Positions 725-3,802 of a stretch of 64,000 nucleotides of DNA are shown one piece after another. A model generated the notes under the pieces. That model worked only from the letters and a program-made list of their open reading frames with translations. It made no database searches and was not told the DNA's origin. Each line of letters starts with the position of its first letter. Within the stretch, counting starts at the first letter, position 1. A program made the position numbers and the translations under genes. The DNA comes from Brevundimonas poindexterae (lineage in GTDB: Bacteria > Pseudomonadota > Alphaproteobacteria > Caulobacterales > Caulobacteraceae), in NCBI RefSeq assembly GCF_020524625.1, contig NZ_JAIVLL010000002.1, forward strand, positions 310,001 to 374,000, written 5' to 3'.

Positions 725-1707
725 CGGTCGGCAGTCCAGCGATGGGCGACCGTTTCGACACGGCCGTCGGGAAGGGTTCGGAACAGGGCGGTGCGCGTGA
801 CCCGCGCCCCTGCGAATTCGACGTCGCTGCGGAAGGCAAAATAGCGCGTCGTCAGGGTCAGCTGGTCATAGACCTCGGAGGTCGGGGTCGCCTCGGCCAG
901 GGCGGGCTGGCTCCAGAAGGCGCCGATGTCGCGCCAGCCGCCGCGTGGGCGGGCGGCGATGGCGGCGCGGGCCCGGGCGGGGTTCAGTCGGCCTTCGCTC
1001 AACATCACCAGCAGGGGCGCGTCATCGACCGAAAGCGTGTTCGGATTGATCGGCGACAGGTCGGGGGTCGGCAGGGCGCAGACGAAGGGCCGGAGCCGGC
1101 CATAGACCTCGGCATCCACGCCCCGGATCAGACGCAGCTCGCCGGCTTCGAGCAACAGGGTACCGGGGGTCCTCAGCGGCTGTTCGCGCCCGGCGTAGGC
1201 GGCGGTCTCGGCCCCGCGCGGCAAGGGGGTCTGGTCGCTGTCGATCCAGTCGGTCAGGGCATCGGCCACGGCCCGCATCCGACCTTCATCGACGCCGAGC
1301 GCCCGGCCCAGCGCCACCAGCTGTTCGGCCCCGCGCGGACGGGCGATGTACGCCCCCTCGATCCCGGAGACGACGCTGTTCAGATTGAAGCAGGCCTGGC
1401 CGTCGCGGACCACGGCGGTGATCTGACCGGCCTCGACCGGGAAGGCGAAGGGCGTCCCGTTCCAGGCGGGCTCAACGGGGGTGACCGGCCCGGCCTGGCG
1501 CAGAAGGCGCTGGATCCGGGTGCGGGCCAGCGCCTCGGCCCCGAGGGCGTACCACTGGGCCTGACCGACCGAGGACAGGTTGGAGGCGCGCCGCGTGCCA
1601 AACCGCACATCGTCCAGCAGGGCCACGGCGATGGCGGCCATGACGGTCACCATCAGCAGCACGGTCAGCAGGGCCATGCCCTTGCGGTCTCGCCGGTCGC
1701 GCCTCAT
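721..1707 (-). CDS. gspK: Type II secretion minor pseudopilin GspK
   Basis: Large minor pseudopilin expected at the tip of the type II pseudopilus with GspI and GspJ. The protein is 328 residues from the ATG at 1707, whose ATGA overlaps the gspJ stop. An upstream ATG at 1731 would start inside gspJ and is less likely. The leader MRRDRRDRKG is strongly basic and ends in Gly10, the prepilin peptidase site. It is followed by a hydrophobic helix (MALLTVLLMVTVMAAIAVAL). There is no glutamate at mature position 5, a known hallmark of GspK. The long body after the helix fits the family's inserted alpha domain. The order I-J-K-L supports the assignment. Confidence 0.93.
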   Translation of the reverse strand: MRRDRRDRKGMALLTVLLMVTVMAAIAVALLDDVRFGTRRASNLSSVGQAQWYALGAEALARTRIQRLLRQAGPVTPVEPAWNGTPFAFPVEAGQITAVVRDGQACFNLNSVVSGIEGAYIARPRGAEQLVALGRALGVDEGRMRAVADALTDWIDSDQTPLPRGAETAAYAGREQPLRTPGTLLLEAGELRLIRGVDAEVYGRLRPFVCALPTPDLSPINPNTLSVDDAPLLVMLSEGRLNPARARAAIAARPRGGWRDIGAFWSQPALAEATPTSEVYDQLTLTTRYFAFRSDVEFAGARVTRTALFRTLPDGRVETVAHRWTADR

Positions 1708-2303
1708 CGGCCGCTTCCGATCAGCAGCCACTGGTCGAGCGCGCCATAATCCTCGAGCGTCAGCTCCAGATGCACGGCGTCGGGCATGGGCAGACGCAGG
1801 CGCGGCTCGAACACCGGCACCTCGGCGCCATAGACGACAAAGCGCGCCTCGGCCCGGCTGACCCCCGTGGCCAGAACCTGGACCACACCCGGTCCGGGCG
1901 CGTCCGGATGCGGGCGAACCCGGCGCTCCAGCCGGTCGCCGACCAGATGGTATTCGATGCCGATCAGGCCCGAGCCGTCCTCGTCCAGACCGACACCGGC
2001 GCCCGTGCGGGTCAGGGCCAGGACGAGGGTGGGGTCAGCCCCCGGCACCGCCCGGGTACGCAGGGGGGTACCGCCATCGCCGCCGGGCAGCGGACGGGCC
2101 ACGGCCTGACTGACATCGGCCTTCAGCAGGGCGCGCATCCGCTGGACCGCGGCCAGCCGGTCGGAGGCCGCCTTGACCGTAAAGCGGCTGTCGATCGACA
2201 CGCCCATCACGGCGGTGCCCGCCGCCGCGATCAGGGCGAAGATGGTCAGGGCGATCAGCACCTCGGTGAGGGTGAAGCCCGCGCGGGTCCGTCTGCGCAT
2301 CAC
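1704..2303 (-). CDS. gspJ: Type II secretion minor pseudopilin GspJ
   Basis: Minor pseudopilin of the type II secretion tip complex, 199 residues. It has the class III leader MMRRRTRAG, then FTLTE with Glu at mature position 5, then a hydrophobic N-terminal helix (VLIALTIFALIAAAG). The C-terminal half is the beta-rich globular domain expected for GspJ. The start overlaps the gspI stop by four bases and the stop overlaps the gspK start, so translation is probably coupled. A leader of this length is normal, in contrast to GspG and GspH upstream. Confidence 0.93.
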   Translation of the reverse strand: MMRRRTRAGFTLTEVLIALTIFALIAAAGTAVMGVSIDSRFTVKAASDRLAAVQRMRALLKADVSQAVARPLPGGDGGTPLRTRAVPGADPTLVLALTRTGAGVGLDEDGSGLIGIEYHLVGDRLERRVRPHPDAPGPGVVQVLATGVSRAEARFVVYGAEVPVFEPRLRLPMPDAVHLELTLEDYGALDQWLLIGSGR

Positions 2304-2671
2304 GACACCGCCCGGAACAGGACGGCCTCGGCCGCGGTCCAGACCCCGTCATCAGAGACGCGCACCTCGATCCGCGTCAGCGACGGATCGCCCGTGCCGC
2401 TGACGATGCGGCGCCACATCCAGCGGCGTCCGCCCAGCTCGGTTTCGCCGGCCGTTTCGCCGGGGGCCGGAGGGTCGACCGCCACCAGCGCCTGAACCGC
2501 CAGATTGTCGGCGACAATGCCGGCGAGGGTGCGGGTCTCCAGCTCGGCCGCCGTGCGGGTGTTCTCGGTCGTCATGCGCAGCAGGGCGAGCGCCGCCAGG
2601 CTGAAGACCGCCAGCGCCACCATCATCTCGATCAGGGTGAAGCCCCCGCGTCCGGCCCGGCGTCGCATCAT
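2300..2671 (-). CDS. gspI: Type II secretion minor pseudopilin GspI
   Basis: Minor pseudopilin that nucleates the pseudopilus tip with GspJ and GspK. The 123-residue length is normal for GspI. The leader MMRRRAGRGG is followed by FTLIE with Glu at mature position 5 and a hydrophobic helix (MMVALAVFSLAALALL). The start overlaps the gspH stop by four bases and the end overlaps gspJ, continuing the chain of ATGA junctions. Unlike its two upstream neighbours, the leader is short and free of repeat-derived sequence. Confidence 0.93.
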   Translation of the reverse strand: MMRRRAGRGGFTLIEMMVALAVFSLAALALLRMTTENTRTAAELETRTLAGIVADNLAVQALVAVDPPAPGETAGETELGGRRWMWRRIVSGTGDPSLTRIEVRVSDDGVWTAAEAVLFRAVS

Positions 2672-3081
2672 TCGACCCGCACCTCCCCGGCGAGGTCGAT
2701 ATGGACGGTGGCGCGCGCGCCGTCCCGGCTGAGCGTCAGGGTGGCCGGCTCAGCCAGTCCCACAGGATCGAAAAGCACGGTCGTGTCCGGCGCGGCGCGC
2801 GTGCCGTCTTCCCACGCGACGCGGTCGAACGGGCCGACGGTCAGCGGCGTCCAGCCGCCCTCGGCCCGGACCCGAAAGCCATAGCCGGCCGGGCCGATGT
2901 CAACGGCCACCGGGCGATTGGTCAGCAGGGATTCCTCGCGGGCCCGCACCAGATGGGCAGCCAGTCGCTCCGCCTCGACCGGCAGGCGCGGCACCGGATC
3001 GGGCGCGGCCAGCACCACGGCACTGGCGGCCAGGCCTAGGATGGCCACCGTCACCATCATCTCGACCAGGGTGAAGCCCAT
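2668..3081 (-). CDS. gspH: Type II secretion minor pseudopilin GspH (start uncertain)
   Basis: Minor pseudopilin of the type II secretion system. The GFTLVEMM cleavage motif and hydrophobic helix are followed by a beta-rich domain of normal size. The coordinates use the ATG at 3081, directly before GFTLVE, giving 137 residues. That start would leave a leader of only Met-Gly with no basic residues, which prepilin peptidase substrates normally need. The same frame is open upstream through a palindromic element (3082-3212) that encodes a very basic stretch ending RRGRGRMG. Two adjacent GTG codons at 3177 and 3174 could start there. I think the working start is inside the element, but the sequence alone does not decide. 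Confidence 0.85.
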   Translation of the reverse strand: MGFTLVEMMVTVAILGLAASAVVLAAPDPVPRLPVEAERLAAHLVRAREESLLTNRPVAVDIGPAGYGFRVRAEGGWTPLTVGPFDRVAWEDGTRAAPDTTVLFDPVGLAEPATLTLSRDGARATVHIDLAGEVRVE

Positions 3082-3212
3082 CCTCCCCCGTCCTCTACGG
3101 GGGAGGGGGACCGCCCGAAGGGGGGTGGTGGGGGCGACCGTCAGGCGTCGGTGTCCGGGTTTTGCCCCCTCCACCACTCCGTGGTCCCCCTCCCCCGCTT
3201 CGCAGGGGAGGA
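3081..3212. repeat. Palindromic repeat element, copy A (gspG-gspH junction)
   Basis: A 132-bp element with hairpin-forming ends: TCCTCCCCC-loop-GGGGGAGG on one side and CCCCTCCCCC-loop-GGGGAGGA on the other. The interior has GGGTGGTGGGGG opposite CCCCCTCCACC. It begins two bases beyond the gspG stop and ends at the gspH start codon. Read on the plus strand it encodes ILPRPLRGRGTARRGV, nearly the same as copy B read on the minus strand, so copies A and B are inverted relative to each other. A third copy lies at 15751-15885. Confidence 0.85.
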
Positions 3213-3214
3213 TC

Positions 3215-3802
3215 TCAGCCCTGCCAGTTGCCGATGTCGGCGTCATTGCCCTCGCCTCCCGGCTTGCCGTCGGCGCCGTATGAGAAGACGTCGAAGGTCT
3301 GACCGTGCTCGCTCTCGCGGCGGTATTGATAGGCATTGCCCCACGGGTCTTCCGGCAGGCGGCGGATGTAGCCGCCGGGCCGATAGCGGTCGGCGCGGGT
3401 CGAACCGGACGGCACGGTCGTCAGGGCCGACAGCCCCTCGCCCGTCGTCGGGAAGGCCAGCATGTCCAGCCGGTACTGCTCCAGCGCATTCTCGAGCGTG
3501 GCGAGGTCAGCGCGCGCCTTGCCGATCATCGCCTTGTCCTGGCTGGGCAGCACATTGATGATCACCACCGTGGCCAGCAGGCCGATGATGACGATGGTCA
3601 CCATCATCTCGACGAGGGTGAAGCCGCTCCTCCCCCGACGCGCAGCTTCGGGGGAGGGGGACGGCGGAGCGGTGGAGGGGGCGGAACCCGGGCGCCGGCG
3701 TGCGAAGGTCGCCCCCTCCACCCCCCTTCGGGCGGTCCCCCTCCCCCGTGAAGGACGGGGGAGGATCGTGTTCATACGGAGGGTCTTCATGGCGGGCCTC
3801 AT
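3215..3802 (-). CDS. gspG: Type II secretion major pseudopilin GspG with a 60-residue leader containing a repeat element
   Basis: Major subunit of the type II pseudopilus. The mature part starts FTLVEMMVTIVIIGLLATVV and carries the family's C-terminal features, including an FPTTGEGLSAL-like region, LPEDPWGNAYQY and a C-terminal DIGNW. The start at 3802 overlaps the gspF stop as ATGA. From there the leader is 60 residues to Gly60|Phe61, against the usual 6-15. Residues of about 14-58 are encoded by palindromic element B (46 codons, in frame). Removing it leaves a normal leader of about 14 residues beginning MRPAMKTLRMN. A GTG at codon 28 could shorten the leader but would still start inside the element. 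The mature 135 residues look intact. Confidence 0.92.
   Translation of the reverse strand: MRPAMKTLRMNTILPRPSRGRGTARRGVEGATFARRRPGSAPSTAPPSPSPEAARRGRSGFTLVEMMVTIVIIGLLATVVIINVLPSQDKAMIGKARADLATLENALEQYRLDMLAFPTTGEGLSALTTVPSGSTRADRYRPGGYIRRLPEDPWGNAYQYRRESEHGQTFDVFSYGADGKPGGEGNDADIGNWQG
3628..3765. repeat. Palindromic repeat element, copy B, in frame inside the gspG leader
   Basis: A 138-bp (46-codon) element of the same family as 3081-3212, with TCCTCCCCCG and CGGGGGAGGA at its ends and internal GGTGGAGGGGG/CCCCCTCCACC arms. It lies between the coupled start codon of gspG and its prepilin cleavage site and keeps the frame. On the coding strand it reads ILPRPSRGRGTARRGV followed by a Pro/Ser/Ala-rich stretch. 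It is inverted relative to copy A, so the two flank the mature GspG coding region as inverted repeats. Confidence 0.88.

Follow-up and report, generated by a model that had tools for sequence, protein, structure and literature searches.

We found that the gspG gene in the window (the whole stretch of 64,000 nucleotides that was analysed) carries a multicopy palindromic repeat in frame within its leader, where the repeat is very probably translated and would then be removed by prepilin peptidase; comparison with related sequences suggests that such leaders form a tolerant landing zone for repeats. An earlier note on this DNA had proposed that a repeat sits in frame in a leader that is cleaved off, so that the mature protein stays as it was, and this proposal is supported, with the frame being kept, the leader sequence free to vary and the mature part constrained. 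The T2SS operon lies on the minus strand of the window, and its relevant features are as follows (G000 being the genome from which the window was taken):

3215..3790, minus strand: gspG, given from its likelier start at 3790; mature part 3218-3622; matches TIGR01710, PF08334 and PF07963
3623..3790, minus strand: predicted cleavable gspG leader, 55 residues plus Gly; the entire spacer is open in the gspG frame
3628..3765, minus strand: palindromic repeat of family A, copy 1, 138 bp, in frame within the gspG leader
2668..3246, minus strand: gspH, with its ATG inside the 3' end of gspG; PF12019 (GspH) above cut-off
3076..3246, minus strand: cleavable gspH leader as predicted from sequence, 56 residues plus Gly
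3082..3211, plus strand: repeat of family A, copy 2, inverted relative to copy 1 and in frame within the gspH leader
2300..2671, minus strand: gspI; TIGR01707, 93.3 bits; leader short and ordinary in G000
1704..2303, minus strand: gspJ; TIGR01711, 67.8 bits; leader short and ordinary in G000

The GspG product reached 169.5 bits against TIGR01710 (cut-off 88.85; profile positions 1-134) and 30.2 against TIGR02532 (cut-off 16.3), and it has a GFxxxE cleavage motif at which PF07963 matches; gspH scored 62.2 bits against TIGR01708, under the cut-off of 80. Two Peptidase_A24 genes are found in the genome, one of them within an ORF of 220 aa. Prepilin leaders are described as remaining in the cytoplasm, with prepilin peptidase cutting after the Gly (PMC10191384, PMC4471445).

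The leader of gspG is indeed too long, with 55 residues plus Gly as compared to leaders of 13-22 residues (Gly not counted) in the 31 loci of the genus that have short ones. The start codon, which had been taken as fixed at 3802 by its overlap with the gspF stop, was probably misplaced, however, and we rejected 3802 as a fixed start by comparison with three related genomes: in G077 an ATG overlapping the gspF stop runs into a stop codon, the usable G077 ATG aligns with 3790, and the gspG starts of G021 and G072 likewise lie a few bases past the gspF stop. Position 3790, which has GAGG just upstream, is therefore the likelier start.

Between this start and the cleavage site, the 138-bp palindrome was borne out at 3628-3765, with nested inverted arms, and a genome-wide search established it as a multicopy repeat. 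Family A gave at least 55 blastn matches in the 2.71 Mb of G000 (40 of 71 first-look candidates scored), a count in which one palindrome often matches both strands; merging left 33 distinct places in the G000 sequence examined, of which 20 measure 106 bp or more. Copy lengths range from 112 to 140 with no tie to multiples of three, and by codon usage (score trained on 26,477 G000 codons) only a few of the 33 are bordered by coding sequence on either side in one open frame. Five of the six frames of copy 1 are open. The family has terminal inverted repeats, as expected of a MITE, and no clear target duplication was seen when the junctions were compared to the empty gspH site of G021. In Rfam, a manganese riboswitch was the sole match at E ≤1 (E 0.21; it scored 15.5 bits, the gathering score being 45), and we therefore rejected a known structured RNA. 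Mobilisation by a resident RAYT was also rejected, because a search for RAYT (Y1_Tnp) genes gave 0 matches in G000; such genes are present in 4 of 131 genomes of the genus.

The second copy (3082-3211) had escaped the earlier note. The two inverted copies flank the mature part of gspG, which recombination between them could invert.

We compared the locus across the genus, where 92 of 131 genomes gave a GspG-like match, using one locus per genome from the 69 genomes with close orthologs (identity 63-100%). Named records whose leaders are identical to those of G077 (Brevundimonas sp. A19_0) and G021 (B. halotolerans MCS24) indicate that the genus is Brevundimonas. This set leaves out a second copy in G104 (L155, same leader), a fragment in G095 and matches at 38-46% identity, 20 of which served as control loci from a second T2SS. 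The distance from the gspF stop to the gspG Gly is 50-65 nt in 31 loci and 77-305 nt in the other 38, with the longest leaders reaching up to 98 residues before the Gly; gspH was found in 68 of the 69 loci (all except G099).

The alignment of related gspG leaders, an analysis that the earlier note had suggested, revealed that long leaders recur across the genus with unrelated repeats at the same place. At least one of four unrelated repeats (A, B, D and E) was present in 34 of the 38 long gspG spacers as compared to none of the 31 short ones, and in 35 of 39 long gspH spacers as compared to 0 of 29 short ones, the threshold being the highest score among 276 control windows taken from gspF and the mature part of gspG; four long leaders of each gene (4/38 and 4/39) had none of these repeats above it. 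Family A (3 loci), family B (a palindrome of about 40 bp), family D (a 115-bp palindrome) and repeat E occupy the same place in gspG, alone or combined. These repeats are themselves dispersed: family A was found in 94 of the 131 genomes of the genus at E ≤1e-8 (6 candidates scored per genome); the B pattern occurred in 30 of 31 genomes of the genus and, with a single match apiece, in 2 of 5 genomes from outside it, with counts near the reversed control in several genomes and well above it in most; and E occurred in 7 of 11 genomes at ≤1 mismatch (control 0).

Close relatives illustrate this turnover. G000 and G077 are sisters, followed by G021 and G072; the gspG repeat is of family A in three of these genomes and of family B in G077, while gspH carries family A in G000, G077 and G072 and no repeat in G021. 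The earlier note had held that a relative with an equally long leader of unrelated sequence would speak against its reading. Such a relative does exist in G077, whose mature GspG is 100% identical, but the refutation does not follow: the G077 leader consists of a multicopy repeat too, family B, and extends the reading of in-frame repeats. On a quick tree with many weak branches, for loci that are related by descent and in which gain and loss are indistinguishable, we counted at least 14 (gspG) and 16 (gspH) changes between long and short, and 23 and 22 changes of type.

Two further observations concern these operons. G104 has the T2SS segment twice (L095 and L155; G104:C1:1305063 and 1980115), with identical long leaders. 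In G021 and G072 (L033 and L034) a repeat-like peptide, SSPRKRG...WVPASAGM, is open in frame upstream of gspI; it may resemble a widespread proteobacterial repeat.

Within the operon the repeats are concentrated in leaders. Among the 69 segments, 55 matches fell in gspG leaders, 61 in gspH leaders and 9 in gspI leaders, a total of 125 matches in 13,735 bp of leader as compared to one borderline match in 167,404 bp of gspF and mature gspG, gspH and gspI; this sole match, in gspF, reads as ordinary gspF on inspection. Beyond these defined regions there were 18 further matches. Of the 13 that were inspected, 10 are in frame in gspJ leaders, two are low-scoring and lie about 120 bp inside gspJ, and one (in L044) runs into N; the others are one match each in L044, L050, L063, L076 and L080.

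That the repeats recur at identical junctions could also mean that they are kept as mRNA hairpins between gspF, gspG, gspH, gspI and gspJ, setting transcript stability or the ratio of pseudopilins, with translation as a side condition. Copy 1 does fold very stably as RNA (−105.9 kcal/mol, z −4.93), none of 200 shuffles being equally stable, and 11 of the 38 long gspG spacers reach z < −2. The other 27 do not, however, while 5 of 38 windows of the same length from the mature part do; moreover, 31 of the 69 gspG loci, and likewise the orthologs in other genera, manage without a repeat. We consider this explanation improbable, and the fold counts led us to reject a general hairpin role as the main cause, although single cases such as the window may differ.

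Throughout its length, the spacer stays open in the frame of gspG in 38 of 38 long loci, as compared to 4 and 10 for the two alternative frames; for gspH the corresponding figure is 39 of 39, with 19 and 4 for the alternatives. In 37 of the 38 long gspG loci, the earliest ATG to follow the gspF stop, whatever its frame, is an in-frame, open one; in the exception, G064, gspG is open from another ATG. All 39 long gspH loci, and 28 of the 29 short ones, have an in-frame, open ATG where the gspH of the window has its start.

If translation began near the cleavage site, the element would be an untranslated spacer. At some loci an ATG does stand right before the Gly (gspG of G021 and G072; gspH of G000, G077 and G072), and a start there is possible. 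Yet ATG, GTG and TTG are all absent from the last 20 codons of 29 of the 38 long gspG leaders and of 21 of the 39 long gspH leaders, and an untranslated spacer need not keep one frame open in every long locus of both genes; we thus rejected this explanation, which is now very unlikely. The window gspG is among the 29 loci, which excludes, as far as these three codons are concerned, the start next to the cleavage site that the earlier note had named as a possible refutation. Leaders that have no late start codon are very likely translated through the repeat, and the repeat of the window is, judging from its open frame and start codons, very likely translated within a predicted 56-residue leader.

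While the frame is kept, the leader sequence drifts. In 12 pairs with alignable leaders, dN/dS was 0.47-2.3 in the leader, i.e. near 1, as compared to 0-0.15 in the strongly constrained mature part (the way the alignment was built forces leader gaps to whole codons, and they were not used as evidence). The drift argues against a long basic leader recruited for a protein function, e.g. tighter membrane targeting or slower maturation of the pseudopilin, which is highly improbable: the basic leader end that favours it (net charge of at least +1 over the last 8 residues in 66 of 69 gspG leaders) is a count that takes in short leaders too, and unrelated repeats replace each other in the sister species G000 and G077.

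The best explanation, which we consider likely, is that leaders are a tolerant landing zone for translated repeats. Translation would begin at the start adjoining the gspF stop, and the Arg-rich leader would stay in the cytoplasm until cleavage after the Gly. The genes gspF, gspG and gspH lie so close together that an insert falling between a stop and the next start would pull coupled genes apart, and one in the mature part would disrupt the protein. The leader would then be the only permissive place, provided that the frame stays open, and this is the likely reason for the site: an insert there that keeps the frame and the basic end would leave both the mature protein and the tight start-stop spacing unchanged, while inserts elsewhere in the operon would be purged. 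The matching places in gspG, gspH, gspI and gspJ do hold unrelated repeats in different species. This mechanism accounts for the location, the frame, the relaxed sequence and the variety of families, and the predicted removal of the leader is likely why these genes tolerate repeats.

A cleaved leader is not sufficient on its own. In the second, diverged T2SS of the genus (L177-L196, GspG loci located by coordinates), none of the repeats was present in the 150 bp upstream of any GspG locus (0 of 20); perhaps operon packing, expression or age plays a part. The other genera of the family also lack them, with 0 of 40 motif matches having such a repeat within 150 bp upstream and the gspG spacer measuring 43-69 nt in 36 of 38 loci (the other two, L120 and L154, gave no gspF stop and are not counted). 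Outside the genus, 56 loci were compared: the leader has at most 24 residues including the Gly in 47 and is longer in 8, and one locus is a piece without ATG; leaders were counted from the first ATG past the gspF stop where found, and otherwise from the nearest ATG. The longer leaders include three with other palindromes, in Sphingomonas solaris (L217), a Sphingomonadaceae MAG (L223) and a Novosphingobium MAG (L231), and one with tandem copies; for the rest (L230, L264, L267 and L271) the start is the nearest ATG. The repeat cores of L217 and L223 occur 8 and 7 times (≤1 mismatch), and that of L231 23 times (≤2 mismatches), in their own genomes, reversed controls giving 0. The gspG leaders of the Sphingomonas loci L217 and L220 also contain, just upstream of 2501, tandem stretches that include the cleavage motif (AEHGFTP), giving several candidate cleavage sites in a row.

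Family A and family B copies also lie in frame in genes outside the T2SS. One family A copy is in frame in an HK97-type major capsid gene (L017:1503-1633; G000:C2:80665-80795; 387.9 bits for TIGR01554); it lies on the N-terminal side of the Pfam capsid domain and presumably near the point where the scaffold part is removed in HK97. Two partial copies are in frame in interdomain linkers of an E2 acyltransferase with PF00198 and lipoyl domains (L027:1035-1131 and 1491-1581; G000:C2:400840-401386). A family B copy (L107:1501-1532) keeps an open frame at the N-terminus of a putative thiD gene, so named from the look of its peptide; among the 12 strict B copies of that genome it is the only one with an adjoining coding frame.

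In-frame coding palindromes as such are already known, from Rickettsia and from other MITE-like elements (PMC2229807, PMC10969869). Rickettsia palindromic elements (RPE) are described as palindromic repeats of 105-146 bp that are intergenic or fused in frame within conserved protein genes (PMC2229807, PMC10969869), and family A resembles this description in being a multicopy palindrome of about 100-150 bp that lies in frame inside conserved genes (gspG, gspH, capsid and E2). RPE as described there, however, occur in varied metabolic and other genes and the insert stays in the product, whereas in the present case a number of unrelated families have converged on a single type of site, one predicted to be cut away. 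Caulobacter intergenic repeats (CIR), which are likewise long inverted repeats in an alphaproteobacterium of the same family, are characterised by GANTC sites and stops in all six frames, and have not been found inside genes (PMC2229807). Family A does not belong to them, since the two window copies have 0 GANTC sites, several frames are open and the repeats are in frame within genes. Enterobacterial RU/ERIC and the Correia-type MITEs of Neisseria are short non-autonomous inverted-repeat elements, some with gene-fused frames, and their description mentions no concentration in cleaved prepilin leaders (PMC2229807). Class III leaders have 6-26 residues in general and about 15-30 for T4bP (PMC4471445), and those of Streptococcus sanguinis pilins are called 'very long' (PMC10191384); type IVb and S. 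sanguinis pilins are thus likewise cases of longer class III leaders, for which these accounts mention no repeats. Among the literature matches listed, no title concerned repeats in prepilin leaders, and it is the recurrent invasion of these leaders that differs here.

We tentatively suggest, with clearly less confidence than for the leaders themselves, that segments discarded by proteases might, for short palindromic repeats, be a bacterial counterpart of introns, in which many unrelated repeat families collect independently as the insert goes after translation. The first example would be prepilin leaders, and the family A copy at the scaffold edge of the G000 capsid could be a second. The rule would be a simple one: selfish repeats survive inside conserved genes in those peptide segments that are removed after translation. 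If this is true, prepilin leaders, for all that they are generally called short, can in nature accommodate nearly 100 residues of variable sequence, with consequences for how substrates are read by prepilin peptidase and during membrane insertion. A natural series of leader lengths is available in the genus, whose pattern also cautions that start prediction is delicate in these pseudopilin genes.
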